Shown here: piece by piece, positions 6,701 to 54,500 of the stretch
How positions within the stretch are numbered: the first letter of the stretch is position 1
How the letters are laid out: every line of letters begins with the position of its first letter
Source: Deroplatys truncata
Taxonomy: Eukaryota; Arthropoda; Insecta; Mantodea; Mantidae
DNA: 64,000 nt
Direction of reading: 5' to 3'
Assembly: GCA_030765065.1 (NCBI GenBank)
Contig: CM060985.1
Span: forward strand, 8,804,001 to 8,868,000
The notes under the pieces: generated by a model
Told to the model about the DNA's origin: nothing
The model's input: the letters and a program-made list of their open reading frames with translations, nothing else
Database searches by the model: none
Position numbers and translations under genes: made by a program

Positions 6701-9700
6701 ATTGCTGTGCATGCGTGTGCGTGCGTGCACGTGTGCGTGTGTATTGTATATTGCTTTGAATGAAATATGTGCACCTTGCGTCTCATTTTTACATACATTT
6801 TCTGTAGCATAACTATTTCTACTCCATGACATTCTCAAACATTTTGTGTTACAGTTCCAACATGTTGTATGCTAATATTTACGCATTGTAAATTCTTTTC
6901 CCTTTTAGTGTTTTACAAGTCAATCCAGTGACACTGAACTTTAAGGTGGAATACAATTCTTGCTCAGTGGTACTTGGGGAAGTAAGACTACAAAGTGTGA
7001 GCTGTATGGAGTACCTGTTTGTGTGTATGACACTGGAGAGAATGTCAAGCACCTTCACTCTGATGTTGGTACGACTCTCCAACTTGAAGTATTTATCCAG
7101 AAGAGAGTTCAGTCTGCTTAACCACAAGGAACATGTTGGTGCTATGGATCCTGACAGATGACTCACAAGACGGAGAACTGACGCCTCCTTCACATGCAAA
7201 CAAGTCAAACATTAAATCACAAACATTAAAAATCTGCTTTATAAATTAGTATCTTTTTTTTTAATGATTAAGTTTTCCAAGTTGCAGGGAGTTGATGAAG
7301 CAAAACTGGTATACGTATATATTCAAGCTTTCCTCATTAATTTAGCTTTTAATTTTTCATTTGTCAATTACAAGTACTTTTAACATATTTATAATTACTT
7401 TCCTGGGAGTTATATCATTTTTCTCCTACATTATTTTTTTTATTTCTATAATTGTATTTGTATTATTTATGTATTTATTTATTCTCTGCTTTGATTCAAC
7501 TAGGCATCAAGGTAGCTTATTCCAATATGTTTTCCTCTTCTCTATTGGTGGTTGGTACAAATTGTAAAAATGGTGAGATTTGGTGATTTGTACATTTAAT
7601 ATATACAAGAAGCAGTACACGATGTAATGCTGCATAATACAAAAACATGGAATAGAATCACTTTTAAGAGCTTTCCACCAAACAAAATCATGACATTGTT
7701 CTCGCTTCGCAATTATGTTAACCAATCCTCCTCTTGCTTATAATGTTTCTTAGCTAACTTAATGAAGCTCTCAAACTCTACAAATAATTATCATGACAAG
7801 CATTTGTTAACCTCAATAATTAAATTATGAAACAGTATTTTCTTCCATACTTAATGAGTATACTTTAATGTTTATAATCATGTCTTTTTTGTATTAATTA
7901 TAGTGATAGCAGGCGTAATTATGTCATTTTATAAATAAGTTGTATGTATTCTGTTTAACATTTTTGTCATATGTACTTTACGAATATACAAGACACATGA
8001 TAGTTCCACTTCTACGCACAAACTTATCCAGGACACATACAAAGACAAGAGGAAACTTTTGGTGCAAACAATGATCTTTTATTAAGGTGTAGAGTAAGAA
8101 AGACTTCTTCCATCAACTCTTGAGGAAACCCCAATTAACTGGAGCCTAGGGAGTCCTAGCACGTGATTCAGAGAGGATGAATCAGTAAACTCCAAATTTT
8201 CTTAAACTTGCAAATCGCAAGGTCCAACAAGCCAATAAGAAAATTCCTGATGAAATTGAAACCAACGAGAACTCAGGCTATATAAGCCGTGGGAGAAATA
8301 TTTTGAGTCGCCTATCGAATTTCATCATGTGACAAAGCTGTGTAACTCAAGAGTAAAAATCTGTGCCAAACTGACAAAGGATTAACAACAAAGATGTGAA
8401 ATCATGTGCGCACATATTAAGTTGGTGAAAGTGATTTAACAAAGTTTAACTTAGTGTTAAGAAACAATGACTAATTAAAATCTTCACCGACAATAATTAC
8501 TATTAATCTGATCATAGTGTAAATGCATCAGAATAAGAAAAGCAACAAAGTATTGTAAGCACCACAGAGTTTAAGATTTTGTTCTCATCATAATTTCATC
8601 ATAATTAAATATTTCATATATATATTCAAGGCATGTCTTCAGCCATATTCTTTCTTATGCACCACACCTTTTGAGATCTCCATACCCAGCCTCATGCTAA
8701 TTTATAAGTAGGTTCCGACAGTAGCTGTGGCAACGAAGTCAACAGTGAAAGATTCTTCCACCACTTCGTTGGGAATGTCCACTTCGAAGAAGATACTAGA
8801 CTCATAATTTGACAACTGCATAATTAGTTACAATGCTTGGAGTCAAGCAACTACAAAATAATGTTGCAATTACCAAAAAAAAAAAACTATCCATACTCAT
8901 GACATTACTTAAGAAAATATTGAAATGGCATGCTCAAGCAGCTAAGTGGATAAGCAGATGGCAAGGCAAGCACATGGATCTTTTTCTAACAAATGCTTGG
9001 GGGTCAGGGATCTCAAAACATACATTTTAGTGAAACATTGAGTGTGTGGTAGGATTCTTTAAGAATCGGTGATTGGTGTGCTGGGTTCAAATTTCAGTTG
9101 CATTGATTCTTTAGTGCTGCATCTGAAGTTGCTTTGTATTTTTCTTGAAGCAATGAGATCTCTTGTATTTTATCAGACTCGTGGTACAGGGAAGATAAGT
9201 TTATCTCATTTTTAATTTTGTTACCTTTTATTTCAAAATCGAGATGTTACTTTTTTTAATAGTAATAATAACAATAGTGAATTGACTAATTTTGAAGATT
9301 TAGAAGCTAGTAACAGTGATGTGTCATAATTTAAAATAGAGAGTTGAGGGTTGTTACACTACATCACTATAATATTATAGTGATGTAGTGTAACAACCCT
9401 CAACTCTCTATTTTAAAAAATAGTGAAAATGATTTTGTTGTATATTTTAAACATGCCAATAGTTGTACAAATATATTAAAGTTATGATACACATCTACTG
9501 AAGATTGACTGAATACTAATGATTATGCCTGTCCAGAAAACTGAGGAGTAATGGCTTCTCTCCTGAAAATTTTCCATATATACAGGTTGGACCATTTAAG
9601 TTGAGACTGTGCAATATCTCCAAAACTAAGTGTTGTAGAAAGAAATGTCTTGAATAAAACTGGCTTGTTATTATGGGGGAAAGTAAATGCCATTAGTCAT

Positions 9701-12700
9701 GTTTTGTTTGGAGAACATTATGATAGTCATTTTAGGGTCAATTTAATTTTTTTAAATTCAAACCTACAATTAGGATCAAATTAAATTTACCGTAAAATGA
9801 CTATCACAACATCCTCCAAATAATACACAACTAATGGCATTTACTTTCCCCCATAATATCAAGCAACTTTTATTAAAGACATTTCTTCCTATAACGCTTA
9901 GTTTTGGAGATACTGTACAGTCCCAAATTAAATGGTTCACCCTGTATACACACTATCTCCTTGGCAGTTCATCAACAACCATTCTTAGTTATTATTTTTC
10001 TATGGTTATACACAAAAGGTAAAATTTTTTCCTTATTGCCAATGTATATTAAGGTTGGTCATGTACATTTTAAATTTTGGTTATTTTAATATTTTTTCTA
10101 ATCATAACAGATATGTACGCAGATTGAAATATATAAATATAATTAATAACAAATAAAGAAACATGATAGCTGTATTAAATAAGGAACATAAGTGGACAAC
10201 AAATCTGTTAACACATGACACATCAGGTAAGTTTTCTATTATAACTGCTTCAAGTGGAATGAAACACTTTCTTTATCAAATGGAAGATAAAGTAAATATA
10301 ACTCACTGGACGAACAGTCGAGCATCTCTCTATGAGTTCAAACACTCTGCGAACTGAACCGTTGAACTGTCCGAGCTCTATCAGCTGTTCAATGGTGGAG
10401 ATGGTGTCATGAAGATGATTGGCTACCATTGCTGTTGGGTTCTTATCTGTCAATGAAATTGTAACATTTCTCATATACATACACACTCTTGGACAACTAA
10501 ACAAATATCAATTTGGAAAGGTGATATCAGATGAAAAATTCAATGCCATTTGTCTTATTGGGAAAAATATAAGTCAGTTGGTGAATTCAGTGTCATCCGG
10601 CATGTAGCCATGGTAGTTGAGTTGGTTACAGCAACAGCACAGATCTGTGGCATTGAATTTTTCAGTCTCATTCCACCTTTCCAACTTTAGCCTACACACG
10701 GCTTGTGTGGAAGAACTACAAGGGTGAATCAAATATAAACCAGACTGGCTCTGAGAGGATGTTGGTCTGTGTCACACACCGCAGAGTGCCCGCTCAGTTC
10801 AGTACACACGTGCAGAACAACATCAAGTTTCTGGTGAAAGAAGGAACCAAAGCTTCGGCAATTTTGAGAAGGCTCTATGCACAGTTTGGGGAAGCAACCC
10901 TTTCAAAGTCCCAAGTGTATGAATGGCAGGATAGGAAGCAGTGGGAAGTGAGCCCCACCAAAGACGACCACGGAGAAACATCAGTGCAGACAACATTCTT
11001 GCTGTACATGACCTTATTGAAGAAGATCAGCTCATAGCAATTTCTGAAATTGCTTCACTCGTAGAAATAAGCTTTGGAAATGTTCAAGCCATGATCAACT
11101 CAACTTCCACAAATTGTCTGCCAATGCAAGGCTACACATTGCTACCTTAACACGGAGGAAATGCACTGGAACATCCTCCTTACAGTCCAGATTTGTCATC
11201 CTGTGACTTCCATTTGTTTGGGCCACTGAAAGGAGAACTAGGAGGAAAAGTAATTTGATGACAATGCAGCAGTAGAGCAGTACATATGCAAGTGTGTTCC
11301 TCTTCTTTCTTCAAGGATGGCCAAAATGTGTCACATTCGGTATGTAGAAAAATGAGGTGGTTGTTTTATTTTTCTATGTGGATTCAATAAAACCGTAAAA
11401 AATAATTCTGGTTTGTTTGATTCACCCTCATATTACTTATTATTGATTAACCTAATAATGGTTAACTATGAATCCCAAGAGTTACAGCTAGTTTCACCAA
11501 TAGATATTAAATTTTAATACAATCATAAACTGATTTGGCACTGAAGTCAACATAAATTCTGTTTTTAACCAAACAATGTTAGCCGTAACACTGTGTTACG
11601 TCATTTAACAATGTTAAAAGTTGAAAAAAAGCTCTCCACAAACCAAGTTTGATGTGCAGTTAGAGTATTTACACCTTTTTTATGCTGCTCCTAACTGAAG
11701 AAGCGCAGTGTGTCATAATGAATTTGAAGACCTGCAAAAAGGGGAATTTTTAAAGCAGTAGAGACTGTCAGAAGCAGTCATGAGCAGGGTTGTAGAAGAA
11801 TTTTATTATTGGTTGTTAATGACAGTATTGCAATTAACATTTTGCACTCTGAGCCATTGTTGACAGCATACTTGAAGTTTGTAATACAGGCATTGCTTTC
11901 CTAATGGCAGCAGTTGCATGTAATAATAAAATAGTGGCTACTTACCATAACAAAGCACACGTTAAATGGTCAACTACAAAAAAACTACTGGTTTGCGACC
12001 GGAAAATCAATCAGTTTACTTTTAACTCATCGCTTTACTCATTAATATAGAGTGGCGCAGAAATAGTTGACACATTTAATATTGTCACAACACTTTTATT
12101 TCTCAAATGAAAATTTTCAAATTTTACACACAGGTAGTATGGTCCATGGAAATATATTTCACTTCATCACATATTAAATATGTGCTCCATGTTCTGTTTC
12201 ATGGAAATGTTGTAGAGATCGTGCTGCTGCAATGTTGCCAGTCCCTTGTTTCACAGTCAGCATCTCGCCATGGTCAAGCATGGACGTTTATCTGTTGAGC
12301 AGTGTGTTAAGGCAGTTCTCCTTTATGCTGAATTGAAAAGTGTCACAGCAATGCAGAGAAGATTTAGGGCAATACTCCACATGTGTTGGGTTCCATCAAG
12401 GAACACAATTCTCCGATTAATGAGAAAGTTTGAAGAAGGCAGTTTGTTGGAGGGGAAACGACCTCAGAGACCGACTGTTCATTCTCCAGAAAACATCAAA
12501 GTGCTATGGGTTGCCATGCAATGAAGTCCAAACAAGTCAACCCATGGGGATATTTGAAAGAGAAACTCTTTCCTTATGGAAATGCATGCCTGGATGATGC
12601 AATGAGATAGATGAAGACTTGTGTCGCAAAGTTGTAAGAGATACGAGTATTCGCCTTCGCAAAGCTGTCTGCTGGAATGGAGCGCATATTGAATACTTGA

Positions 12701-14965
12701 TGAAGTGAGATGCATTTCCATGGACGATACTACCTGTGTGTAAAATTGGAAACTTTTCATTTCAAAAATAAAACAATATTAAATCTGTCAACTGTTCGAG
12801 TGCCACATTGTATGATGGCTTCATTGTTTTCTACTTCCCACATGGGCAGCAAAAACAGAATAGCGACCTAAAAAGACTAGGCTTATTTCATTGCAAATGC
12901 AACAATAGTACATAACAGACTCAGAAATAATTACAAACCAGCGTGGGAGTGTAAGGCTTATTCAAGAGAGAAATTACTTAACAGTAATGGGGTTTACCGT
13001 AAAGAGTATGTAGTAACTGAAGAGTGGAAATTTGAAGAAATAATGTTTCCACTTCATTAAGGAAATAGTGGAATTAACTATTACATTTAATATGTGGTAT
13101 ATGATATTTCTACAGTCTTGTGTAATGCCAAAATGTGCTATGAATAAATGAGCGTGCCTATTTTAAGTCTTTTAGCACATGATACTAACCCAAGTATTTG
13201 ATGATAACTTCTATGACGGACAGAAGCAGATCCCAGGCTGGGTCTTGCAGCTCTAGACCGTACTTGTTCACCAGTCGCTGTATACTCAGCGTCACCTCAA
13301 ACATCACTAGTGTGTGTCCACACTCCAAAACCTGCAACAACACTTAACTTCTGTAAACAAGTTGTTTTACTTCTTTGAGCCACTTTTAGCAATTTATATT
13401 AAAGTTTAACACAATGTTAAAGTGATTTACATTGAAGTTAATGTAAACTCTAACATCACGTATCCTTCTGTTAAGACATTTAACAATCTGGAAAATTGCT
13501 GCTGCAAAGCAAGCTGTTGACGTAGAATTGCTGTGTAATACCATTCATAACCAAAACAGCTGCATCTTAATTAAGTTTAAAACCAGCATGAGGAGGAATT
13601 TTTAAAGTGATACAGACTGTCCAAAGTGATCATGAGCAGGGGTGTACAGGGAATATGAGAGAGGTTAGAATACCACCAACAGAAACATGCCAACACTTTC
13701 TCTTATGTTACAAGTGTTAATTACTCTTGAGATTTCATGGTACTGGCACTTTTCATTTAATGATAGCATTAGAATTTCAAGTTACTGTTTGTGACTTTAT
13801 CTGGAAAGCAATTGCTTCAAGAAGTGAACACTATATTTGTTCAAGCTGACTGATCCTAAATCACTAACAACACACTTCTGTCCACTTTAGTTTCAATGTA
13901 GTATTCACTACCAGCTTTAAATTACTCCAAATACTCTTCATACTTGACATTTTGGGTGCTGAATTAATGTTAACATATGAGAAATGCATCAATTGCAATT
14001 TAATGCCTTGCAGAGTTTTCCCAGGCTGCATCCTTTTCCTTTAATTTAAGTCAGTTGTTTTTCTTTTCCATGTACACAATAGGTAGAGAAGGTATGGCAT
14101 TTCACCCAAAGTTGTTTTGTTACGTATTGTTTATTTTTCGTAAACTTGAAGGTGGTTTGTTGTGCTTTCATAATAAATTACATAATTTATTATTTGCTTT
14201 AAGGAGTTTGCAACACACTTTGGGCGTCGGTTTGAATTTATTGATTACATAATAGTTACTGTTATTACGCACTATGCTACAACGTATGAGAAACTGATTT
14301 CAAGATGTGTTTTTTGTTATTACACTCCAAGTTTTACAATATAATATTTAACTGTGTTATTAAAACTGCTTCTATATATTATTTATGTTTGAATCTGCCT
14401 CGGCTGCATCAGTAATGTTTCTAGAGTCATGTATCTTAGTCAAGGTGCGGTGCAACAAGAATTGTAGACATACACCGATTTTTAAATTTTTAAATTCACT
14501 TGTTTTATTTATCCTTTGCACAATTTATATAAAGCACTACACTTTTTAAGAACTGTGAGAATCTTTGATACTTTCACTTAGCTAACGCGTAGACATATTT
14601 TACAATTCACACGTAGTATCTCTGTAGAGAACACATCTTCCATCTGTTCACTACCAAGGTTTGCCAGCAACTGAGTAACTTTCAACGGTCAAAACTCGTA
14701 AGCTTCGGTATTTTAAGTCTCTGATTGGCTAATTCTAGTCCAATAGAATATCTGCATTTTACTTAAAGCTTTTCTTTGCTGTTGATTGGCTAATTTTAAA
14801 CTGTTACTGAATTTACATTATCGTTGCTTTAATCATGACTAGTAATTTTCAAACTCAACTCATTATTACCTCATTGTTAGCAACTTAAAACTTACTATTC
14901 TCAAAGCTATTAAAGCACTATTAAAGTAAATAATGTATTCACATAACATTATTAAATATGTTTAC

Positions 14966-15019
<54 letters not shown>

Positions 15020-18000
15020 CATTTGCAATGCCTGTTACATACAATTCAAATAATTATTACATACATATTGTTTGAAGGTGGGCTGTTATTGAATTTACTT
15101 ATTATAAAAATACAATTGAAATTATTCAGGTATTAAAATACTGCCTCAATTTTCATCCGGAAGCAATTTTGTACAATCTTGTATAACTGGTAAACGTTAA
15201 GCATTACACAAAAACATACCACAAAAAATGTAGATCTCTTTAAAACACACAATTTACTTCAAATAAAACTTTTTGTGGCATCAGGCGTTTCTAAGATATG
15301 CATTTATCAGTGGTTCGAATTGTTCAATACTTAGTCATTCTTTTAAAGTATTGTCAGTATTCAGTTGTTTCTCGAGATTGCCTGGAAACAGTATGGAATT
15401 TTAAGGCAGCATATATGACTTTATTTACAATGATTTCTAACATAAAAATATTGGTTTTGTCAAATTTAAATAAGTGTTATAATACAATAAGTAAGAACAT
15501 GAAATAACCAAAATGTGAATACTGACAAATACAAACATAATATTGCATAATAAAACTATACTCTTTCAAAATATTCATCCACTGAATAAAAACAACTTGT
15601 ATTAAGAATTTCTTCAATTCTTTTTTTAAATATTGCTTAAGGTATTGATTTCTTAAAAAATGGAGGGAGTCTTTTGTATAATTGAATACCATTATAATGA
15701 AGACTTGCTTCATATAAAGTTATTTTATGCCCTGTAATGTGTAACTCAAGTTTACTTCTAGTATTATAATCATGAATGTCTGCATTTAACTGGTTATATG
15801 TTATTACCAGTGTTTCATACATGTAAATTGATGGAACTGTTAGAATGTTTAATAATTTGAAATAAGGTCTACAGTTTGTGCCGCTGCAAAGGTTCAGCAT
15901 TAGTCTGATTACCCTCTTTTGTATTATAAAAATTATATTATTATGGCTTGACTTTCCCCTGACGATAAATGTGAATGGAAGTATGCATGCAAAGTAGGCT
16001 ATTTTTGGCACATCAAAATTTACTGCAGATCTTAAGGCATATAACGCAAAACATATTTGGCATAATTTACTGGCTAAAACATTAATATGCATTCCCCAGT
16101 CAAGACAACTATCAACATAAACTCCAAGAAATTTAATTTTTTCCAATAAAGTTACTAATTCATTTTCTAAAAAAATATCAGGAAAATGTACATTTTTGTT
16201 AACTTGGTGATGAAATCCAACAGCAATACTTTTGCTCAATTTTTGAAGATTTAGAAGCTTGTAACAGTGATGTGTCATAATTTAAAATAGAGAGTTGAGG
16301 GTTGTTACTCTACATCACTATGATATTCTTACTTGAACGCGTTTCGGGAGACGGCTTGTTCCCATCGTCAGCATTTTCTCTCAACATGAGAGAACAACCC
16401 TCAACTCTCTATTTTAAATAAAAGCAATACTTTTGTTTTTGTTAATTATAAGTTTATTTTCTTTAAACCAACTACCTTATCTGTTGCCAAGTCAATGTTA
16501 TCTTGTTTGTCTTTAGTGGAAATTAAAACACTTGTATCATCAGCAAAAAGAGTAAATTTAGCATTAATGAGGTCACTGTTTTTAGCCAGGCCATTAATAT
16601 ACAATAAAAATAATAAGGGACCCAAAATCAAGCCCTGCAGCACTCCATATTTAACATTTTCAACACTAGAGCGAGGAGCTTTAATTTCGTTTGAGTCACT
16701 GTCTACAAATTCAATTTCAGCTAGATGCTTTCTATTCCTAAGGTATGATTTGAACCACTTCAAAAATAAGTTCCTCTTATACCTTCGTGGTCAACCAGAT
16801 GTAAAACTTTTGGTTGATAAGAAATATTCCCATGCACTGATTTCCAGTACCTAGCTTTTTATGTACTTCTTCAATAATGTTCTGCAATGCCAAGTTAGTA
16901 GATTTCCCTTGCTGAAGCCCATGCTGTACTTTTGATATAATATTATATTTATTTAAAAATAATAACACCCTATTGTACACCACCTTCTCAATTACTTCAG
17001 AAAAACTAAAGAGACAGAAATAGGCCTGTAGTTTTCTAGCTCAGACCTTTCTATGCAGAGACTTAGTCTTTGAGACTTTTAAGCTCTGAAGGAAGTATCC
17101 TGCTTTCAGTGATTGGTTCATTTATTAAATATTTGACTATCGTTATTCCCTTTGTAGCTATAATGAAGTGTGTAATGTAGCTATTTCTGGAAATGTTTAT
17201 CTTGATTAAAATGAAGTAGGCAGAAAAATAAACTTTTGTAAGAATATAAGAACGTAGGTTTTCACGGCCGGTGTCACAATTATAACTAATATGATTTTCC
17301 GGGCTGTTATGCCGTGGTCTGCTGAAGAAAGATTTCCCAGACGTTTCGTCCACAACTGCGGTGGACATCTTCAGTGGCGCGGACGAAGTCTTCTCGGTGA
17401 AAGTATCGCAGCGTCTGATGCGTTGGCCGTTAGTGCCGCTCTCTTTATAGTGTGGTACCACACAGCGGAGCGCTAACACCAGACTGAGCGAACACAAAAG
17501 AAACTGCCGCCTGGGCCATACAGAAAAATCGGCAGTCGCCGAACATGCCATTGAAGCCGAGGGCGAACACATTATTAGATTTCAGGACACCAACATTCTT
17601 TCCTCCATAAAGCATTACCATACCCGGCTACAACGCGAAGCAATAGAGATTTATAAACATCCCAATAATTTCAATAGGAAAGAAGAAGCATTGAAACTCA
17701 ACAGTAACTGGCATCTAGTCATCAAAAACAAGAAAGGTCATACAAAACCGAAAAACACTGCGAGCCAATCAGAAGAGAGCAACAACACAGCCGGCGCCAG
17801 CCCCCTCACACCAGCGGGCCAATCAGCAGAGAGCGCCCACACTATAAAGAGAGCGGCACTAACGGCCAACGCATCAGACGCTGCGATACTTTCACCGAGA
17901 AGACTTCGTCCGCGCCACTGAAGATGTCCACCGCAGTTGTGGACGAAACGTCTGGGAAATCTTTCTTCAGCAGACCACGGCATAACAGCCCGGAAAATCA

Positions 18001-21000
18001 TATTAGTTATAATTTTGTAAGAATAATTTGTATACCCATTAATAAGCCAAAGACGGAGGAGAAAATCACGTGAATGTATGATAGAAACGTAAAAACTTAG
18101 TTCCCATCCTCTGTTCAGCTTTTAAAGGCAAACAAATGTTACAGCATTTTTAACATCAACTGTTGAAACCGGCCCTTACTGTTAAAAAGCCTACTGGAAT
18201 AACTATAAAAATCAGATGAAACTTTACACTTGCTAACATGCCACAGAATTGTAAGTGCAGTATTTTTAAAATATTAGCAATTACATAGACTTCTGTTACT
18301 CTTCTACCATCCACGTTTGACTCCTTTACTTAGCTTCATTTTAACTACTTCCCATGATGCTCTTGTTCTCTATCTGATTTATAAATTTGTCATTATGTAG
18401 TCTTCTTCCTGTTTGAATCAGTCTTTTATAAATTTGTTTGAAAATTGTCAATCACCGTTTGTTTTATATGAACCCACCCCATCCCTTGAACCAAGTGCCT
18501 CTATACTTACACAGAGAAATGATGGCAGAACTGAGGTGGGCGTACATCTGAGGTTTGTGACCTTCTTGGTGCCCCAGAGTCCCATAGTGATGTGAAATAT
18601 AGCTCCACGTAACAGAAACTCATCACCCCACATTGTCTGGTCTTGCAAGAGACGACACATGGTGTAGAGTGCTGCATGGCCCAGGTGAGTTCCCAGCAAG
18701 TTCCTCATCACCTGCAACAACAACACTTCATTCTCAATCCACATTAAAGCTAAGTGCATACACAAACCTTTGTCTCCGATATTTCACATTTATTTATAGG
18801 CAATCTGGAATGTAAAATTCTAAAATCTTTCCTTCACATTGTTACTCTCTCTGCTAATTACCTATAGTAAGTAAAGAGTATTTTACTCCAACCAAAAATT
18901 CAACACCAAGATTTCAACAGAACTGCTCGTTTTGAGGTACCTTGACTTTCTTTTTAAAGAGCATTTAAAAAATACTAGTGCATGTGTGTGTGCGTGCGTG
19001 CGTATGAACAGCATAACTCAAAAATGAAAAGTCAGTTAAATACCAAACTTGGTATTTGAGCATCTTCCAAAGATGCGACACAAAGATTTTCAAGAAAATA
19101 CCCCCATCCCAAACTACCCTTTATATGAAACATTTTCTCAAAACAGCTCTAACAATTTTGATTAAAATACCACAGGTTTAAAATATTTACATGACAATGT
19201 ATATCTTGAATTTTCTGTGAGCAACCTGTGAAGTCTTCTTCATTCAGAAAGAATTTTGTATAACTGGTAAATGTTGAAGTAGACAAAAATGCACTACACA
19301 AAAATTGCTGGTCTCTCTAAAACACACAATTTATCTCAAATAGCCTTTTCTGTGGTATCAGACATTTCGTGGCACCCATTAATATTGTTTTCAACTGTTC
19401 ATAACTTTGTGAAAAAGTTTTCTACAAATTCACATACCACCCAACAGCTTTCTACAAATTCCAGAGAATCTTTAAACAGCACATCATTTTAGCCCCACCC
19501 CCCAAAAAACTGTTACTCCATCAAGAACATCTTAAATTTTAAATTAAAAGGTGACATCTCATAGGATAAGAAACTGGAATATACCAGGTCAGCTGCAAAA
19601 AAAGTCTACATTGAGAAAACTAAAGGAAATTTAAGCACAAGAGCAAAAGAACACACCAGGAACATAAATAAAAAGCAGGAAGACAAATCAGCGGTAACCT
19701 GGCACTTTTGAAGAGACCAACATACCATAAACAGAAATTTGAAAATACTAAAAAAACATAACTTACATTGGGAAAACATTTACATTTGGAAAAACCGCAA
19801 CTGCATTTTCAATTTTGAAATCCCACCAGGCAACATACTTGTGCAGAGATTTATCAAATTGCCACCAGGGACAAGGCCAATCAGCAAAAGGGATGATCCC
19901 AGCAGTCGACCAGGAACTGATGCTTGGAGCCCCAGAAACATGTTTTCCATTTCAAAATATAGCGAGTGATGTAGTGTCACAAATCAACTCAAGAATTAAT
20001 CTAAATTATTAGGGTACATTACTGTCACAAAGTCCACCATACTTAATACTAAGTGTAAGTTAGACATTTGTATAATTTAGATGACTTGTAAATAATTCCT
20101 CTATTTTATTAGTTTGAATGTTTCAATTTCGTCTAGATTAATTTACCTGTTCTTGACTAATTTTGAAGATTTAGAAGCTAGTAACAGTGATGTGTCATAA
20201 TTTAAAATAGAGAGTTGAAGGTTGTTACACTACATCACTATAATATAATAGTATATTATAGTGATGTAGTGTAACAACCCTCAACTCTCTATTTTAAATT
20301 ACCTGTTCTTTTTAACTGTAATTTTGACAATGTCAGAAATTTGTAGATAAATCTATTGATAATTATTATTAATTGAATCTTGAGCTGGATGATACACCAT
20401 AACTTCAATTACTTACAACTTCACTCACTTTCAGTTGAAAAAAAATCAAAAGTGATACATTCACATCACTTTCTCTACCTTCTATCTTTATTAGAGGGTA
20501 TATACAAACTATTCTTACTAAAGCTTATTTTTCTATCTACTGCATTTTAACTGCTTTCATGACATTGCAAGAAACAATTGAATGTTGACAGCACTTTAAG
20601 AGAATGACCAAGTAATGAGCAATTCAAACAATTAATAACAAATATCTCAGAAATGACTTATGCCACAAAAAAACTTATTTGAAATAAATTGTGTGTTTTC
20701 AAAAGACCTTCATTTTTTGTGTTGTATGTTTTTGTCTATTACTTAATGTTTATCAGTTATACAAGATTATAGAAAATTCCTTCCAAATGAAGAGGGCTTC
20801 ATACGCTATTCTCAGCAAATTCAAGATATAGATTTTACTTGTGATATGAATAGCTTTAATATATGGTATTTTAATCAAAATCATTAAAAGCCATTTTTTA
20901 GAAAATAAAAAATTTCGAAAAAGTTCCACATAAAGGGTAGCTGGGGGTGAAGAAATTTTCTTGAAAATCTTTGTGTCGCATCCTTGGAACGTACAGAATT

Positions 21001-23480
21001 TAAATACCAAGTTTGGTACTTATCCGATTTTTCATTTTTTAATTATGCTGTTCGCACGCACCTTTTTCTAAAAATGCTATTTTTTAATTTAGGGAGCCTC
21101 AAAGCATATATTTCTGGTGAAATTTTGGTATCAAATTTTTGGGTGGAATGCAATATCTTCCTCACCTACTATGTACATGGTAGAGAAAGTAAAAAGCTGA
21201 AAATGAAACATGTTTGAATAAATTTCAAGTAAATTAAAGTGCATCAGTCAGCTCTAGATTCAATTAAATTAGAATTTGGTATTTATAGTAAAGCCACATA
21301 TAGAGAGAATTACATCAATACTGATGCTTTTAACCCAATAATGCAAAAACATGTAGTCCTAAATAACTTTGCTTAAAGACTGATTTATACTGCTATGAGT
21401 AAAGACAAATACTGAAAGTAGCATATCAGAAAAGAAGAAGAAACATAAATAGAGGAAAACCTAAATCAAGTTCACCACTCTATCTTTGATTAATGAATAA
21501 AATGTTTACAGTTAATTTTTGGTGGATATGTGTTTACTAAATGAAAGAAGGATGCTGATACCTTCCAGCTGCTCTGACAGTAGATCTCGTTCACAGTGCG
21601 ACAGAGAGCGCTGACAAACGTAAGGAGAGAGTCAGATGGAAGGTTTGTGTAACACAATACTGTGTCCATCACTTGGAGACAAGCCTGGACCACAGGCTCA
21701 GAGTTGCTGTTCCTGCACAGGTAGCAAGTGTTTCTGCAAACAGAAAACACATATGTAGCCAGCTTAACCTCCTCCCCATTCTTCATGAAATTACTGTACA
21801 ATCATCAGAACATTTTTACACTGAATCCTCCCCTTTATCTGTTTGTACAGCGCTGGCTGTTACTAATAATGGATGTTAAGTCCTGATATTCACACCAAAG
21901 CATGTTAAACATCAGCAGAACGTCTGACTTTCTTAACCTTCCTCCCGCACTGTTCTCAAAATGCTACTTAGTCTATAAGTACCCTTTGGTTGAGTAAATA
22001 AATAAATATTTTGTTTGTTAATGGCACTGTCAATTGCCAGAATCATATTAGTGCTGCTGGTGTGCTGGAATTTCGTCCTGCAGGAGTTCTTTTACATGCA
22101 AGTAAATCTACTGACATGCACACTTAAAAACCATTGGTCTGGGCCAGGTTTGAACCTGTGACCTCAGGATCAGAAGGCCAGCACCTAACCAACTGAGCCA
22201 CCCAGACCGACCTTGGTCAAATAACTTGTTAGATAATTAACAGTAGGTGACATTTAAGTCTTTGTAGTAGCTAGCCACAATATGAGTGCAAGCAGTGGAA
22301 GAGGAACTAAACAGTTACCGAATAAGTGGGCAACAGTCAGGTAACAAAATATCTGCAGTTCTAGTTGCGAGACTTGCTAGCGGGCTGAGTCCTGCAAATG
22401 TAGTGCAACTGTACATTCCACTATTGCCTAGGCTTGAAGTTAGGCACTGTCCACAAACACACTGGCACCCTCCTCCAAGTGCACTCATATCATGGCTGAC
22501 ATGGTTGGTCCCACAGTTATTTAATAGCATAAAAGCTACACAGTTTTCACATAACACATACAAAAAAATAGAGGTGAAGCTGGTGAATATGAAGATTCTC
22601 TTATCCCAGGCCTAATGGAAAAGTAAACTGATCCTATTTGAACATCACCAAGTGAATAAAGAAGCTGATCTTGCTGCAATTTTAAATAATAATAATAAAA
22701 TTGAAAAAGTTGACAATCACAAATTCTTAGGCATACACATAGATAATAAACTAACTTGGGAAGTTCATGTTGACTACATATGTAATAAAATAAGCTCCAA
22801 TATATATGCAATAAGACAACTATCATTGTACCTAGACAAAAAAATGCTACAAATGTTATACTTTGGAATCATTTACCCCTATATCTCCTATGCTATAGCA
22901 TTATGGGGAAGCGCCAGTATTTCTAACATGAATAGGGTTTTAGTATTACAGAAAAAATGTTTACGATGTATATATGGTCTAACTAACACAGAGTCGTGTA
23001 GAAATGTTTTCAGAGAAAATAAACTTCTTACTGTGGTAGGATTATATCTGTATAAGGTACTAGTTATTGCAATAGAGAAACAAAATAATGGATTATGTAA
23101 CAGTATGCTTTATAGCCATGATACTATAGGTAAGGACAATTATCACAGAGAACAAGTTAACCTCAAATCTATGTGTAACGATCCGTTAATCAAAGGACTG
23201 AATTTATACAATAAACTACCAATGACTGTTAAATTACACAAAGGAAAGAGATTTAAAAGCAAACTTAAAACATACCTAACACACAAATGTTTATATAGGT
23301 TAGACAAACTTTAGCTTATTATGTAAATAGAAATCTATTGTAAAGATATGTAAAAACGTAAATACTATGTCCTATACAATAGGTGAAAATAGTAAATGTA
23401 GATTCCTTGATAATGTCTGAAACTTGTATGAAATCTATGGACAATAAAACATTTTGTTCTCGTTCTCGTTATCATTGTTA

Positions 23481-23562: not shown

Positions 23563-26500
23563 GTTAACCTCTTTGGAAAATACACAGAGCCTGCAACCAT
23601 TGAGAAAAATAATCTTCAGTTGTTAATTATAAAATATCAGTTCACTGATTTCTAATGTTAGCTGGACACAGTTTTCTATTTTAATATACGAGGGCTGTAA
23701 AGAAAGTAGTGGCAAAATGGTCCCCACATTCACAGGAGAGCGGGATATGGGAGCAATCAGGTGACTAGTGTCGATGTGTGGTGTGCATTGGTCGGGCTGC
23801 CAGTTGAGAGTGTGTTGCTGTGTAGCGTTGAAGTGAACAGTGTCAAGTGCACCGTTCTAAAGCATGTTTACCAAAGGCGATCAGCGTTCGGGATTAAAAT
23901 CGAGGTTGTCCGTGGCAAAAATGCATCAGCATGTTATCGAGGATTACGTGAAGCCTGTGGCGGGAACGCATTGCTGTACAGGACGGTTGCACGATGGGTC
24001 AAGGCGTTTCGTGCAGGTCGGACTGAAACTGCGGATTTGCACCACACAGGTCGGCCGTCCATTCCGCAAGATCAGATTGACATCGTGAGTGGTCCCGTTG
24101 CCATGGACCATCGATGGGCTGTCCGGGAGTTATCCGTAGAGATTGGTCTCAGTCATCAAACTGTGTGGCATATCCTGATGAAATGTCTTCACCTGAGGAA
24201 AATTGCGTCCCGTTGGGTTCCACATCGACTCACTGAGGTACAGGAATGGCATCGGTATGCACTGGCTGGCATCCACCTGGACAGATACTGCAACGAAGGA
24301 GACGCATTTCTGCAGCGTATTGTCGCCATTGATGAGACATGGGCACGAGCCTATGAGCCGGAATTGAAGTGTCAGTCGAATGAATGGCATCACCCAGGTT
24401 CACCACGTCCACAGAAAGTTCGACAGGAACCCAGTCGGGTGAAGCTGATGCTGATTGTGGCATACGACGAGGGGGTTATTCTTACGCATGCTGTGCCTGA
24501 GGGACAAAACGTCAACAGTGACTACTATTGCTGATTTATGGAGCGACATCTTCGTCCGGCTATGCAGCACAAACGTCCACGTTTATTGCGAGACGATCAC
24601 CCCATAGTGTTGTATGACAATGCACATTATCATGTCGCAAACAATGTCCAGCTCTTATTGCAACAGTGGCATTGGGAGGTTTAGGAGCATCCTCCATACT
24701 CACCAGACATGAGTCCTTGTGACTTCGACCTGTTTCCAAAGTTGAAGGAACCCCTCCGAGGCCGCCAATTTCCTGACATGGCATCTGTAGTCCGCGCAGT
24801 AGGGCGCTCCATCGCAGTCATCAACAGAGATTGCCTTGCCAACGGTCCCCAACGGCTGCCCTACATTTGGCAAAAGGTCAGGGACTTTGCAGGTGACTAC
24901 ATTGAAGGAATGTAATGCAATTGTACTTGTGAGTTCAATAAATATTGTGTTCTATCAATGTTGCCACTACTTTATTTACAGCCCTCGTAATTATCTAACA
25001 TATCTTCTAACAAACTTTATTACAGCACAAGCAGTAAGAAAATAAAGCATAACTTTCTTACATGAGGGTAATTAAAATATTTTGGTATCGTATGTGTATC
25101 ATAGTGTTATAAGGTGATTTGATTTTCTTTTGTATTACTGTGTCTTAGTAGCTGAATTGTGAGTATCTATGTATATTATCTGGAATGAAATATTGGCAGC
25201 ATTTGCCTTATTTTACATGAATATACTCTGGAGTAACAACAACTATTTTCTACTCTTTGGCATGTCAACTAGAAATCAAAGCCTTGCTCATAAGTATGTT
25301 GTTTATAACTCCAATGTGTACGATATTCTGCTAGAAGGGATTTTTAAATCCTTTTTAGTCTTTTAGTAGTTTATGAATTCAAATTATCTGTTTTATAGCT
25401 CACGTCTTGTCAGAAAGTATCTGGCTTTTTAATGGTGAAAGAATTATCAAAATCGTTAAATGGTTTTTGAGATTACCCTATGTTGTAAATCAACAAGGTC
25501 CAATGGACTGTTTTACACACAGTTTTTGAGATCATGACACAGCGGTGGTAGTGTAATTAGTTAAGATAATGAAGTACAGATGGCACCACCATGCTCCTTG
25601 CAGCGAACTAATGAGCTACGGGCTCAGGTATAAAAGGGAGAGGGAATCAGTCAGCCAGCAGTCACTGCATAGCTACTTAACTGGGCCGTACCTCTCAAGC
25701 TTAACTATGCAAACTCGCTTTCTTCATTTCCTGAAGCATAGGGTGGTCCTGGTCTTAGTTGCCGAACCTGTCCTGCATCTCTGAGCTCATCAAGGTAACA
25801 GCCCTCTAACCTTCTTGGTACATACACATTCTTAGTATGGATTGCACGTGCTTCCTAACAACCATATGTGACACTTACTGCACTAATCCTGATACAATCT
25901 CCTCATCAACGTAAGCTGCATTAAACTTGATGACGTTGACCAACATGGAGAGGAACTCTTGTGTTCGTCCTGCTACCATAACGGCAGACATCCACTCCAA
26001 CATGAACGGTCCCATCTCTTCTTCAAAGTAATGGATATCTTTTCCATTCTCTGTCAAACTCTGCAGCAGCTCAAACCTGAAACACAATTTGTTTAAACCA
26101 CTAGAAACTGTCTAGCTACACAATTTTTAAGTTACATATATATTTCCATTATTTAAATAGAGTTTAAAGCAATGCATAGTTTAATTTTGTAAAAAAATGT
26201 GAAAATGTTTGACTTTTGTTGTCATTTTACTTTCTCTACTATGTATAGTAAGTAGGGGAAGTATTGTATTCCACCCAAAAATTTGATACCGAGATTTCAC
26301 CGGAAACACATGTTTTGAGACCCCCTGAATCCAAAAAAAGTATTTTTGGAAACATGTCTGTGTGTCTGTCTGTGAACAGCATAACTCAGAAACGAACAGT
26401 CGGATAAACACCAAACTTGGTATTTAGGTTCAGTATCTTCCAGAGATGCGACACGAAGGTTTTCAAGAAAATCCCCCACCCCAGATTACCCTTTACATGG

Positions 26501-41645: not shown

Positions 41646-41647
41646 AC

Positions 41648-44755: not shown

Positions 44756-44899
44756 ATTTCTCCCTCTCCACACCATGCATTATTTAAGAACTGAAAATTT
44801 GCAAACCCTCAACATTCTTTCCCCCCCCCCAAGAGTAAACATTTCAACATGCATTACAGTAGAACAATAACAAATAAGTGTAGGTCACTATCATATGCC

Positions 44900-45640: not shown

Positions 45641-45679
45641 TGGCAGAAGTTATTAATTGCTGATGTGACTTGTCAGATA

Positions 45680-46435
45680 TAAGTACATATGCGCGAACAG
45701 CATAACTCAAAAATGAGAAGTCAGATAAATACCAAACTTGTATTTAAGTACAGTATCTTCTAAAGATGCAACATGAAAATTTTCAAGAAAATCCTGCCAA
45801 TCCCAACTACCCTTTATATGGAACATTTTTCAAAATGTTTGATTTTCAAAAAAATGGTTCTAATGATTTTGATTAAAATATCATATATTTATGTGATGAA
45901 TAAAATGTATATCTTGAATTTTCTGGGAATAGCTTCTGAAGTCCTCTTCATTAGGAAGGAATTTTGTATACTCTTGTATAACTGGTAAATGTTAAGCGTG
46001 ATAGATGAAAACATACTACACAAAAAATGTAGATATTTTTAAAACACACAATTTATTTCAAATAACTTTTTTGTGGCAGAAACCATTTCTGAGATATCTG
46101 TTATTAATGGCTCCAATTGTTCATTATTTGGTCATTCTTTTAAAGTCTTATCAACTTTCAGTTGTTTCTCATAATTACATAGAAAGAGAGTGGAATTTTA
46201 AGGCCAGCGTATGTCTAGTTCTTAAACATTTGACTATTACTGTTTTCTTTATATCTATAACAAATGGTGTAATGTAGCTATTCCTGCAAATGTTAAAAAA
46301 ACAAAACAAAATGTCAAAAAGGATTAAAATGAAGTAAATATAAAAATAAGCTTTAGTAAGAATAATCTGTTTATTCACTAATAAGTGATAGAGGATAGAG
46401 AAAGTCATGTGAATGTATCACATCTGGCTTTTAAA
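45680..46435 (-). repeat. repeat A copy
   Basis: It runs from AACAGCATAACTCAAAAATG to GAGAAAGTCATGTGAATGTA in reverse family order. An uninterrupted stretch at 46190-46410 shows what the 17.1-18.1 kb copy looked like before its PLE insertion. Confidence 0.8.
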
Positions 46436-46439
46436 AAAA

Positions 46440-46560
46440 ACTTCTTCTTTTTTTTTTTAACCAGAGGGCCTCAAAATATGTATTTCTCATGAAACCTCAA
46501 TAACACATTTTTGGGTGGAATGCAACTCTACTGATAAGGTACTTGGCACAAAAAGTAAAA
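46440..46560 (+). repeat. repeat A right-end fragment
   Basis: CCTCAAAATATGTATTTCTC and TTTTTGGGTGGAATGCAAC match the right end of the family. Confidence 0.65.
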
Positions 46561-46564
46561 ATAA

Positions 46565-47180: not shown

Positions 47181-47184
47181 TGTA

Positions 47185-48266: not shown

Positions 48267-48352
48267 ATAAATGAAGTGATGTTACTGAAACTATTATTTC
48301 ACATCATTGTTACCAAAAACAAATTAATCACAAGACAAATGCTGCTGTACAG

Positions 48353-48558
48353 TTTCAGACAGAGCCCTCTACAATACGGCAGTGTACCACGTGCCACACG
48401 TTCCTTGTCAGATCCAGAGGATGGTCGTTCAACACTACGACACATCATCTACTGTGTACATGGGAAACCTAATGGCTGTTGTGTGGTCACGGAATGTGAA
48501 GTCTACACGTCTGCACAGGATTCAGAATCTCCGCCACAAGATGTCTCATCAATAAATG
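48353..48558 (+). CDS. probable N-terminal coding exon of the ZnT gene
   Basis: An open frame reads SPLQYGSVPRATRSL, then HIIYCVHGKPNGCCVV and ends DVSSIN at AATG|GTATAG. It leaves one base (G), exactly the phase needed by the next exon, which begins TT; together they give Val before GEHCHR. Codon use is more coding-like than the surrounding repeat DNA, and a Cys-rich leader just before the HCH motif fits cytosolic N-termini of ZnT2/8-like proteins. The 5' border is uncertain: acceptors at 48350-48352 or 48356-48358 are possible, or an in-frame ATG at 48339 could start translation. It lies just after a copy of repeat A. Confidence 0.55.
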
Positions 48559-51500
48559 GTATAGTGCACACTTACCTATGGCAGATAGAGGACGTATCAT
48601 TATTAAAAGGATTGCACATTTCACTGTAAATACCTGTTTTGAAGTCCCATGAAGCCAAAGAAAAGTGTACATTTTTAAAATACCAAATGTAACATCTAAT
48701 CATAGAGAATATATTGTGTTACAAGTGCAGTGCTTGGTGAGCTACTACATGGCCGATGCTACTCAGACTCCTGCCAAAACAGTTAAAATATCCTTGCAAC
48801 CACCTCACATTCTCATAGTTACAATTACAATGATAGTAAGCACATGCTATGTGATAGCACACTCTTGTAAGGAAGTTAGAAGATGATTTAAAACAAAATT
48901 TTCTGGTTTACCCATTCCCACACAGATAAACGATGCAAAGTCTTGTGAATAAATTTCAGGAAGTTGAGTGTATTCTCTGTAGAAAGCGAAGAGTAAATAA
49001 GCAAGTTCTTACTGAAAACAAGCTGGATGAATGTTTAGAACACTCTGCTTGAAAATCTCTATGGGTGCTTGAACACAAAACAGAAGTTTCTATGAGCTCA
49101 ACATGGCAAGCAAGGTACTTAACTATGATAGACCAGAGCTTATCTGTGCGTCTATCCTTCATCATGATCATGGTCCCCTTCACTGGGCTGCAACAAAATG
49201 TATAGTGTGTGGATTTGAACCACTAGTGACCTCTAGTAACCAGGGCATGAACATTCAGTAATGGATGATGTGAATAGCAAATTCAACTCCCTGACGTAAA
49301 TTATCTTATTCATGTTCTATGACTGTAGGATATATGTTTCCCATTTTTTGTCAGTTTTTGTTTATAGTTAATGTTATAAAGTGTAAAATATGGACTAGAA
49401 ATCTGTGTATAGTCTATGATGGGGTGTTCTTTGCTTTAATATTTATTTATTGTGATACCAGGAAGAGTTTCACAAGTAATACTACCAGATCTTCATGAAT
49501 TCTTATAGAATGGAATTCAGTTTTATTTTACATGGAATTTTTGCACATTTACTGCACTGAACATTTTACACATTGTAAATTTCATGTCATCACAAAATTA
49601 TTATGCTTTGCTGGACGAGGGAAAGTTTTAGGGGTTTCAGTTTCTGGAACTTGGCAAGAATGCAATGAAGTAGGGTTAAAACTAGTGAATATGAAGATTG
49701 CTCAGTCAACAAATTAAACATTTTGGTAAACAGTGTGTAATCACCAAGAAAAAGAATCTGTTTACTATACCTACACTAGTAATGAAATTGATTACAAATA
49801 CAGCAAAACTTTTTTGCATACAAATTATTAAAAATGTTGATACAAGTATTGAATACATATACTATTCTTATAGATAGATCTGACTGTCTTATGCTTTGCT
49901 CTCCTTCATTTTCTCAGTTGTTAAATCTATGTGTATTGCCTGGGATATGTCCACAGTTTCTGTCTTAATTTTACTCACTGCAGTGAGTAATAACTCTTTT
50001 CTGCTCTATGACATTCTCAAGCAAAAGTCAGATCCTTCTGGTAATCATATTCTTTTATGCTCCAAAATGTTCATATTATAATGTGCAGGTTTTGTAAATC
50101 CTAGTTTTTTGGTCATTTACAGATTGAAATTAAAAACTGTCCTATAGCCCATGTCTGTTGGGAAGAACATGCTTTTCAATAACGAAAGAAATATAAAAAT
50201 AAAGCAGTTATGTAATATCTGATATTTCATACACCCACAGATTTTCTCTTTTTATATTATTAAAGATTTTTGGGTAATGAAAGTTAAAGTTGGAAAACTG
50301 GCAAGGCATGCAATGAACATGCGAAATATGTTTTATACAGGATAAAAGTGTGTGCAGCTGAATTTTATGTTTTAATTGTAATGAAAGTTATGGTGTTCTG
50401 CAGTTGGCGAACACTGTCACCGCACGCAGTACAACAAAGTGGATCAGAAGGCGAGAAGAAAGCTGGTGATTGCCAGTGTCCTGTGCGTCATCTTCATGAT
50501 AGGTGAAGTTATAGGTGAGTTGTGTGACTATCTCAGTGCACACATTTCTGTAACATTCGACATTTACAAGCAAATGTACAACACGTTGTAGGTGGGGTGC
50601 TGTCAAACAGTCTCGCCATAGCAACAGATGCTGCTCATCTTCTCACAGACTTTGCCAGCTTTATGATCTCGTTATTCTCGCTATGGATGGCCAGCAGACC
50701 TGCAACTAGGAAGTTAAGCTTTGGATGGCATCGAGCAGAAGTGATTGGTGCTTTAACGTCAGTGTTGATGATTTGGCTAGTCACTGGCATCCTGGTGTAC
50801 ATGGCTGTCCTCCGAGTTGTGCACAGAGACTTTGAGATTGACTCCGAAATAATGCTCATTACTTCAGCTGTTGGCATCCTTGTAAATCTCATGTGAGTTT
50901 CTTACTACATTCTTCTGGAAAAGGAGGTGCATCAACTCAAATGCTAGGCAGTAAATGACATTAATGTGTTACTAGGAAGAGTAGTGCGAGTCAAGTTTTA
51001 AGACACTTATAGTTCCACTTAATATGTGTTTTGAAGATGCTCATTTTCATCTTCAGCGGTTCATCGACTGGTGTTTGAAGAGGAAGTTCCTGTCATAGTT
51101 GTGTCTGTGCTGTCATTTGGTTTTATGGAAGGTAATCTTAAGACGTTATCTGCATATATTAAGTGTGCATGTTTCTTAATCTCCCAAGTTGCAAGTTCCG
51201 ATCCTGTTTTCACGTCATTGATGTGGTAAGGTGTCCAGAAGTATGGGATACTGCAGATTTTTTAATTTGTTTACATTTTAGGGTAAATCTTCACAACCCA
51301 GACAGAAAAAGAAGGTTAATTACTGTTTTTAGATTTGAAAATCACGTGACACAAAAACTGAATAGAATTTGGTATATTCAGGAAATCCACCCATACACAC
51401 AGCTACATCAAGAAAACGTCTAACATATTACAGTCATATGTCTTTATCTACCCTCTATCGTTTATTAGTGGGTAGGTATACAAATTATTCTTAAGAAAGT

Positions 51501-54500
51501 TTATTTTTCTATCTACTTCATTTTAATTGATATAAACCTTTAAAGAAATGGCTGTATTACACATTTCATTATAAATACAAAGGTGAGCGGTCTCTCAGCG
51601 CTTTGGCCAGGAATTGCATGGCAGTCTTGTGCGACACGTCTGAATGAACTCAAGGCCACGGGCTCTTCCACTTATCAGACATGTGCCAGCAGGCTTCAGG
51701 CAGCTATTATTGCTTCTTGTGTATACACGCAGACGCGTGTGTATTTGTGTGCAATTGAATTATCGGATTATTACAACCCAGAAATAATACTCAAATTTTC
51801 ACTTGAACAAAGACTTTTTATGTATGACACTTATGTGAAAACCGACTCATGTAGATAGGTGTGTAGGCAATTTCATGATAAATTTCCTGGTGTTCCAGTT
51901 CCGAGTAGAGAAACAGATAACTAGTGAATAAAGTGAAGAGAATGGGATCATTTAATATTGTAAGTTGTAAAAAGAAACGCAGGGTTCTAATGGAAGAAAA
52001 ACTAAAGGGTTATGGCTGGCTCGATCGTAGGATCTTACTGTGTGTGACTTTTATATGTGGGGAACTCTCAGAAATAGAGTCTATAGGAATAATCCTCGCA
52101 TCATAGATGATCTTAAAAACAATATAAGAACAGAAATTATGGAAATTACGCAACAAGAACTTATGTGTGTGAATAGTAATTTCATCAGAAGGTGCCAAGA
52201 ATGTTTATCTGCCGAAGGACTCCACTTTCAACGCCGACTGTGAAAAGGTTAGTACTGATAGTAATTATGTTTGTTCAATAGGTAATCAATATATCATAAT
52301 AATCATCATAAAATCAGTAATATGGTATCAGTATGAATAATGAGAATAATAAACAAACACACTGAATATAGCGCGCGGTGACTACTGGCCAGATGGCTGA
52401 GGGACCGCTCTGTATAATGATAGTCAAATGTTTTAGAACTGGAAGTTATATGCTGGCCTTAAAATTCCATACTCTTCCTGTGACATGCGAGAAACTACTG
52501 AAAAGAATGACAGTATGGAACAATTCAAACCAACAATAATGGATATCTCAGAAATGGCCTATGCACAAAAAGGTGTGTTTTATGCAATTTATGTTTTTTT
52601 GTGTAGTATGTTTCTGTGAATTGCTTAGCACTTACTAGTTATACAAGATTATACAAAATTCCTTTTGAATGAAGAGGACTTCATAGGGTATTCCCAGAAA
52701 ATTCAAGATATAAATTTTATTTGTCGTGTAAATATCTTTAATATATGATATTTTAATCAAAATCATTAGAGCTATTTTTGAGAAAATATAACATTTAGAA
52801 AAATGTTCCATGTAAAACGTAGTTTGCGGTTAGTGGGGAGATTTTCTTGAAAATGTGTCGTGTCCTTGGAAGATAGTGAAGTTTGGTATTTATCCAGCTT
52901 TTTGTTTGCGTTATGCACACATACAGGACCTTTTTCTATGAGGGGCATTTAAAAAGTTTTGCAAGTGTCATCTTAAAGTCCAAACTAAGGATGGAATACA
53001 AAAACTTACCCTCACAATCCTTCAAAGTAGTCTCCACACACAGTTGCAATCACTTGTCAAAAGCACTGAGGTACTGTCAACAGAGATGAATTTATAGCCT
53101 CAGCAAGGTCCTGCACTCGTTTAAAAGGTTTCCAGCAATGCCAGAAGTGCAAGGTCAGGACTGTACTTAGCGGCTTGCAGTTTCCTCAAATTTGCCACTG
53201 CTCTGTGAGGGTACGCAAAAGCAACAGCCGTGAATTTCCTACCTTTGGACACCGCCGCCTCAGCTCTTCAAAACAAGAGCCACAGTATTCTGCATTCATT
53301 GTCATTCCTTCTGGCATGCAGTCAACCACTAATGGTTCTTCATAGTTGAACACAGTGAACATTCACTTCCAAGAACGAAAGTCTTGTCAAAGAATGACTG
53401 GTCTTGGATCATTCTCATTTACCCAGACACAATTCTGAGCTTTATTACGTGTGGTATAATAACAAAACCAACTTTCATCATGAGGGCATACATCTTTCAA
53501 ACGTTTAGGGCCATTAGGTGGAAACATCCTCAGTAGTTTTCTTCTCTTCACTGGCTAGAGAATGTGGAACCCTTTTTGCAGCTTTAAATGTTCATGCTGC
53601 CAACACTGATACCAACTTCCAAACTTAGCATTTCAAAAGTGATATGTCAATTTTCTTCCACCAAGTTCCTCATTCTTTCTTTCACAGCAGTCAGAATGAG
53701 GGTTGTCTTTGTAAGTCTCTCACCTCATGGACTTTTTTTTCTCTCTTTCACCTAGCTTGTAGCATGTGAAAATGTAGAATCTAATGTTCTGTTTAGAAAT
53801 AACCATCATTTTTTCACAGCTATAGACACAGGACTGAACTCTACGACTATGAGTATTGAAGTTTAAACTTATACTTATGCATATTTTGATACCTTAAGGT
53901 CAACTGTTGCCAGCCATATTAGTTACATTATTGTCCAACAATAGACAGGCTGGTTGCAAAACTTTTTGAATGTCCCCTGTAAAAATGCTTTTTTTTGGAT
54001 GATTCAAGGTGCCTCAAAGCATGCATTTCTGTTCAACTCTTGATATCAAATTTTGGGGTGGAATACAATACTTGCTCTTACCATGTACATATAGGTGGCA
54101 CAGAGAATAATATTTCAAGATCATAAATACAATATTAGAACGTATATATTGTAATGAAAAGAAGCTAGAAACAGTGATGTGTATTGAATTTATTGAATTC
54201 AGTCGAATTAACCTTCTGAGGATGGGAACAACCGTTTCCCGAAACATGTTAAGTGAGTAAACTTAAGTGATGTTAGTGTAACAATTCCGACTCACCTTTA
54301 AATAAATAAAATATTAGAAATTTACTAAATCACCCATTAAAAGGCACCAATCAATCCAGTATATACCAAATAAACTGAGGATTGTCCAAAAGTACATCAG
54401 CTAAACTAAGAGAAACTTACAAACATGTCTGAGGTACCAAAAACAAACAAATTCACAAATCTTTAATATCCCATTCACTTCTGGACTGCTCACCTCAACA

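Follow-up and report, generated by a model that had tools for sequence, protein, structure and literature searches.

Four short insertions in the genome of the mantis Deroplatys truncata are probably the shortest products of Penelope-like elements (PLEs). They lie in a 64,000-nucleotide stretch (contig CM060985.1, positions 8,804,001 to 8,868,000 of the forward strand; hereafter the window), together with one decayed larger PLE of the same family and one PLE-like element of unrelated sequence, family B. These six elements, all with target duplications, share a left/right asymmetry. In 6/6 the left end is inverted and carries a tail, and in 0/6 does a tail stand on the right. With independent choice of site the probability of this would be at most 0.5 for each element and 0.016 for all six. 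We give roughly even chances to the reading that the four minis (mini1 to mini4) are non-autonomous products of endonuclease-bearing PLEs, made by twin priming and head-to-head joining of two complementary DNAs (cDNAs). The six elements, described with reference to the pseudo-long terminal repeat (pLTR), are:

9284-9417, plus strand: mini1; a tail, then a 44+44 bp perfect palindrome of the 3' part of the pLTR, without ribozyme core
16235-16422, plus strand: mini2; a tail and inverted pLTR containing the entire hammerhead-like core, with a short pLTR arm joined on the right
20155-20298, plus strand: mini3; a tail, then hairpin arms paired at 49/50 positions, with a 4 nt spacer
54141-54309, plus strand: mini4; diverged subfamily, in which an inverted tail is joined directly onto a pLTR in direct orientation that contains a hammerhead-like core
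55697-57769, plus strand: decayed PLE; inverted pLTR and tail, frame-broken stretches resembling reverse transcriptase (RT), GIY-YIG endonuclease, right pLTR
17247-18012, plus strand: PLE-like family B; a left tail of about 28 nt, 181-bp inverted arms (180/181) around a presumed endonuclease-like remnant, hammerhead-like core in both arms

Target duplications and insertion sites

The four short insertions are real, at the places given by the first-pass annotation, with the end of mini1 set at 9417. That each is a separate insertion with its own direct duplication, as claimed there, is borne out by exact repeats: AATAGTGAA at mini1 (9 bp, 9273-9281/9419-9427), AGCAATACTTTTG at mini2 (13 bp, 16222-16234/16423-16435), TTACCTGTTCTT at mini3 (12 bp, 20143-20154/20299-20310) and AATATTAGAA at mini4 (10 bp, 54131-54140/54310-54319). 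All four minis thus carry the short target duplication (9-13 bp exact) that is a mark of Penelope membership. The duplications abut the element ends or sit at most 2 nt away. Among 20000 random position pairs drawn from the same window, with 6 nt of slack allowed per side, words of at least these lengths turned up in 0.1%, 0.035%, 0.04% and 0.06% for minis 1 to 4, respectively. The duplication of the large PLE is 7 nt exact (0.6% of random pairs), or 12/13 by eye, and that of family B is TTTTGTAAGAATA (17234-17246/18013-18025).

Empty sites were found for two of the six elements, by DNA for family B and by a reading frame for mini2. A paralog search within the window, using the flanks of all six, reached the insertion point for family B only; the repeat flanking it is uninterrupted at 51568-51429 (minus strand), 46322-46418 and 20550-20455 (minus strand). 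Minis 1, 3, 4 and the PLE gave no empty site in this search. When the flanks of mini2 are rejoined minus one duplication, a frame resembling the RT of a long interspersed nuclear element (LINE) reads across the joint and aligns there, at 38% over 97 residues and E 1e-13, with another LINE copy from the same window. Mini2 therefore landed inside a LINE; this LINE is a remnant, whose frame shifts about 12 residues before the joint. The flanks of the six elements are AT-rich (mean 0.796 vs 0.653 for the window, P 0.0001). All six are oriented alike along the window, for which we have no explanation beyond chance.

Some neighbouring features deserve mention. About 160 bp from mini1 lies a MITE-like inverted repeat (resembling a miniature inverted-repeat transposable element; 9579-9948, 171-nt arms at 87%, 28 nt spacer). 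Two cation-efflux (zinc transporter-like) stretches occur within 50528-60585, the first well above the Pfam family cut-off and the second just below it, and mini4 and the large PLE sit between them, perhaps in an intron. These stretches and the base composition (34.7% GC) give the window a eukaryotic look. Elsewhere in the window are a Mos1/mariner-like transposase remnant (23710-24534; Pfam Transposase_1, HTH_48) and two tRNA matches above the Rfam gathering score, either genes or parts of short interspersed elements (4475-4546 and 22136-22207 (minus)).

Ends, arms and relation to the large PLE

The minis are linked to each other and to the PLE through their ends. A left-end profile of minis 1-3 and the PLE recovers mini4, which is absent from the profile (E 0.0041), and a right-end profile of mini4, mini2 and the PLE recovers the right arms of mini3 and mini1, absent from it in turn (E 2.6e-10 and 4.3e-9). 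Of the common tail and PLE 3' end ascribed to all four minis in the first-pass annotation, the ends hold throughout, while the tail of mini4 is common to the others only over about AGAAGCTNGNAACAGTGATGTGT. The large PLE, as also proposed there, has the same kind of tail and ends by both end profiles and arm alignments. The right pLTR end of minis 1-3 is CTATTTTAAA. Since the ends of the minis match those of the decayed PLE, PLE machinery most likely made them. The ends are like those of an element with both RT and GIY-YIG endonuclease, another mark of Penelope membership, with the RT of the large element seen by eye only. Its endonuclease is recognized by Pfam (E 1.8e-6), and stretches in separate frames look like RT from their motifs.

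The structures of the minis can be grouped generally into two kinds. Minis 1 and 3, and these alone, are the two elements in which a hairpin replaces the interior, as had been claimed for two of the four. The arms of mini1 (9330-9373/9374-9417) pair at 44/44 positions without spacer and those of mini3 (20198-20247/20252-20301) at 49/50 with a 4 nt spacer; their RNA folds reach -69.5 to -72.2 kcal/mol, with z-scores of -14.3 to -16.5. The two differ by one substitution in 91 aligned left bases and by 10 nt at the tips, and their internal joint is nearly common. Minis 2 and 4 have other joints. In mini2, 27-bp exact inverted arms (about 34 nt allowing two 1-nt gaps) surround the pLTR with its ribozyme-like core.

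Positions within the pLTR were read on a ruler made of the minus strand of mini2, with a predicted hammerhead cut at 55, site 1 (the proximal end) at 110 and site 2 (the tail end) at 156; arm ends on it were set by the target duplications. The right arms of minis 1, 2 and 3 and of the PLE stop at 110 or 111, that is 55-56 nt past the predicted cut, and the right end of mini4 aligns at the same stop, with gaps. Left arms run beyond site 1, aligning to 150 in minis 1 and 3 and the PLE and to 138 in mini4. The tail of the mini2 reference measures 46 nt; this and the tail of family B fall slightly outside the published 30-40 bp. Inner limits vary. Both arms of mini1 end 8 nt past the predicted cut, and those of mini3 end 9 nt (left) and 6 nt (right) past it. 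In mini2 the left arm spans the whole core and the right arm reaches to 20 nt past the cut; in the PLE the left arm runs from 19 nt before the cut and the right arm through the core into coding sequence; in mini4 the left arm is the tail and a few bases and the right arm runs from 54 nt before the cut. The joint of mini2 holds an 8+3+8 palindrome, with arms at least that long at 19/5000 random places. The tails of minis 1, 2 and 3 and of the PLE can fold, weakly (-1.5 kcal/mol), into a UGACA[CAUCAC]UGUUA stem-loop.

Family B is unrelated to the minis' family in sequence and has the same structural plan, which thus extends beyond a single sequence family. Its junction palindrome is GTGTGGTACCACAC (7+0+7; arms at least that long at 66/5000 random places), and its insertion is apparently recent. 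The interior, which we call an endonuclease-like remnant from its look, has no Pfam match, and a search for its relatives in IMG/VR gave seven pattern matches, none confirmed. A further hairpin at 61-190 (35-bp arms at 97%, 20 nt spacer, -55 kcal/mol, an extra stretch on the left only), with a possible 7-bp TTTTAAA duplication by eye and no clear relation to the minis, possibly represents a third PLE family.

About 110 bp from mini3 lies one more relative of the minis:

19880-20041 (limits approximate), plus strand: old relic of the minis' pLTR; decayed ribozyme core, tail in direct orientation

The relic is found by nhmmer with the left profile (E 0.00029) and, below the inclusion threshold, with the right profile (E 0.03). 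Its tail lies direct and beside its pLTR, as expected from read-through or a tandem copy. It was left out of the six-element counts because its ends are undefined.

The sole larger PLE of this family in the window does not appear to have driven the minis, as the first-pass annotation had supposed. Its reading frame is broken, and its arms mismatch at 7/73 positions vs 1/121 pooled for minis 1-3 (Fisher 0.005). Diagnostic variants anticipated in the minis and lacking from a full PLE do exist in minis 1-3 relative to this one copy: GATTTAG vs GATTGAG, AAAATAGAG vs AAATGGAGAG and CTATRATAT vs CTAAAATGT (minis first). On account of these private variants minis 1-3 are not simple deletions of the local PLE. 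By its sequence the local PLE predates minis 1-3 and is not the copy that gave rise to them; the expected source is a younger PLE copy not seen here. In wider searches the tail pattern had 0 matches in IMG/VR and 0 in bacterial and archaeal genomes, and relatives of the PLE C-terminal protein in IMG/VR came to three pattern matches, none confirmed.

Hammerhead-like cores were located by pattern scan in both arms of family B and at:

16336-16371, minus strand: CTGACGA...CCCGAAACGCGTT in mini2
54216-54250, plus strand: CTGAGGA...CCCGAAACATGTT in mini4
57676-57712, plus strand: core within the PLE's right pLTR, AAAA replacing GAAA

A strict scan (CTGANGA...GAAA) matched 11 places in the window, two of them in minis (mini2 minus, mini4 plus); a "PLE style" pattern matched mini2 and the PLE; and a loose pattern matched six places, four of them in mini2, mini4 and the two arms of family B. 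Matches outside these elements are regarded as chance. Minis 1 and 3 have no core by the pattern scan, as their arms end short of it. Rfam reported no hammerhead at gathering score in the whole window, and a limit relaxed to E 10 still gave none for mini2, mini4, the right end of the PLE or one family-B arm; the ribozyme claim therefore rests on the core motif. PLE hammerheads are described in PMC7761336 as minimal variants without helix III or loop-loop contacts, a form that may account for the Rfam miss of the ribozyme predicted here. An ATG stands at the start of stem II, as in an Anolis PLE. The predicted ribozyme may have cleaved the RNA of minis 1 and 3, since the arms of both end within 6-9 nt of its predicted cut; ribozyme mutants of the Anolis PLE still insert in vitro (PMC11167929).

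Proposed paired priming and other explanations

In work with purified Anolis PLE protein (PMC11167929), both target strands were cut and extended, preferably at AT-rich sites, and synthesis began at two neighbouring positions inside the RNA, which correspond to the tail found in the genome and lie in an AC-rich stem-loop. To this published activity we add a pairing of the two starts and a joining of the products, both of which we infer. The PLE enzyme would cut both strands of an AT-rich target with a stagger, giving the 9-13 bp duplications, and pLTR RNA would be reverse-transcribed from both cut ends. The cDNA begun at the distal RNA site would form the left, inverted end with its tail, the one begun at the proximal site would form the tail-less right pLTR end, and the two same-sense cDNAs would meet head to head and be joined. 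Size would be set by how far each cDNA ran before joining: the hairpins of minis 1 and 3 would come from short runs of near-equal length and minis 2 and 4 from short runs of unequal length, and the 0.8-kb and 2-kb elements would reflect a long run on the right. In this form, paired priming accounts for minis and larger elements by a single rule, without an antisense template. The duplications, the two empty sites, the tails on one side only, the common stop of the right arms, the AT-rich flanks, the weak stem-loop of the tails and the joint palindromes of mini2 and family B speak for it. If insertions of 134 bp to 2 kb regularly show a tailed inverted left end and no tail on the right, they are a genomic record of priming on both strands from two RNA starts. 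The minis allow a test of this, as each of their two cDNAs is short enough to be read end to end. A wider version is doubtful: that PLEs normally integrate by pairing a distal start on one strand with a proximal start on the other, and that the zero-interior hairpins, as minimal products, now form a self-propagating "retro-foldback" class whose transcripts also serve as long double-stranded RNA against the parent PLE.

Several observations weigh against paired priming. The joint palindrome of mini4 does not exceed chance (5-nt arms, reached at 594/5000 random places), and a palindrome was looked for at the PLE joint and is absent. The 4 nt between the arms of mini3 are foreign to the pLTR. For mini4 no AC-rich stem-loop is predicted (0.0), and family B has a different fold. 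In the Anolis work no difference in start site between strands was apparent in vitro, and the tail was called optional (PMC11167929); a strict pairing of starts thus finds no backing in that work. The rule was derived, from sequence only, on the same six elements of one window, with joints picked by eye. Two rival accounts also have a claim on the same facts: minis 1 and 3 are so nearly identical that they could also be copies of a single mini, and self-priming on an antisense template is how Arkhipova (2013) explained similar structures (PMC3846280).

Copying would make the minis a propagating non-autonomous family, in which a hairpin mini of single origin gives a transcript with the tail and start region that PLE protein copies in trans. 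This is possible yet on the whole unlikely. In its favour, minis 1 and 3 have start, tail, arms and a near-same joint in common, their tips differ by a simple 10-nt length change, and minis 1-3 share variants that the local PLE lacks. However, just two such copies are known, with unlike tips, the joints of minis 2 and 4 are others, and the Anolis enzyme needs RNA past its start (the first 172 nt of the open reading frame (ORF), starts at 111-118; PMC11167929), which the minis lack unless flanks serve. The first-pass annotation had likewise seen a non-autonomous hairpin family driven by a PLE; non-autonomy, PLE ends and hairpins in two of the four minis stand, whereas a single family is not supported, mini4 being diverged and minis 2 and 4 having other joints and a ribozyme-like core. 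In snap-back self-priming, as proposed for bdelloid Penelopes, the inverted arm would arise from one cDNA that primes itself on a template of antisense strand or cDNA; this is likewise possible yet on the whole unlikely. The joint palindromes of mini2 and family B speak for it, as does the inference published in PMC3846280; taken alone, it explains neither the tail-less stop of the right end at the proximal site nor the very unequal arms of mini2, mini4, family B and the PLE.

Internal deletion of full-length PLE insertions after landing would explain why the ends are the same as those of larger elements. It is improbable, as two separate events would have had to leave near-perfect arms of 44 and 50 bp at nearly the same point, and the one larger PLE of this family that was seen is older and has other bases at the diagnostic sites. 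Least probable are animal retrozymes, small ribozyme-bearing elements that move via circular RNA (circRNA). The hammerhead-like cores and lengths of minis 2 and 4 (188 and 169 bp) recall them, but there are no tandem ribozyme copies, no mini has more than one core, minis 1 and 3 have none, and the Rfam models miss the cores of minis 2 and 4 even at E up to 10. A miniature or foldback DNA transposon was rejected: the ends are asymmetric, since on the left about 46 nt of tail lie beyond the inverted arm, so that no terminal inverted repeats reach both ends.

Comparison with known systems

The minis are a modest structural novelty and not a proven new family. Hairpin PLE minis without interior were not found among the matches listed in the openly licensed PMC literature, judged mostly on titles and abstract openings. 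The view that the group has no name is partly right; an inverted pLTR, a tail and a palindromic junction appear in PMC3846280, and short non-autonomous Penelopes are mentioned in PMC6685494.

The closest published structures are the Penelope/Poseidon elements of Adineta vaga, for which PMC3846280 gives an inverted pLTR at one end, a 31-bp tail, junction palindromes and 8-10 bp duplications, with pLTR-framed sequences mobilised in trans. The elements described here share the inverted tailed pLTR, junction palindromes and short duplications. In the passages that describe them, the A. vaga pLTRs enclose an ORF or captured sequence, or stand solo without duplications, whereas in minis 1 and 3 the two arms abut, or nearly so (spacers of 0 and 4 nt), inside a duplication. 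The short non-autonomous Penelope elements of heliconiine butterflies have the same assignment, and the passages of PMC6685494 that mention them give no structure. Metazoan retrozymes (PMC7229834 and PMC7761336) are small and non-autonomous, are thought to use PLE machinery and carry type I hammerheads; they differ in having tandem hammerheads and a circRNA, whereas a mini has a single core (2 and 4) or none (1 and 3). The Anolis PLE PAc has a pLTR with a minimal hammerhead, of which the core motif would be the counterpart here, an ATG at stem II and, as proposed for the present elements, two RT starts that define the tail, AT-rich cutting and extension of both strands. It is known from in vitro enzyme work, and its main text describes neither minis nor products joined head to head (PMC11167929).

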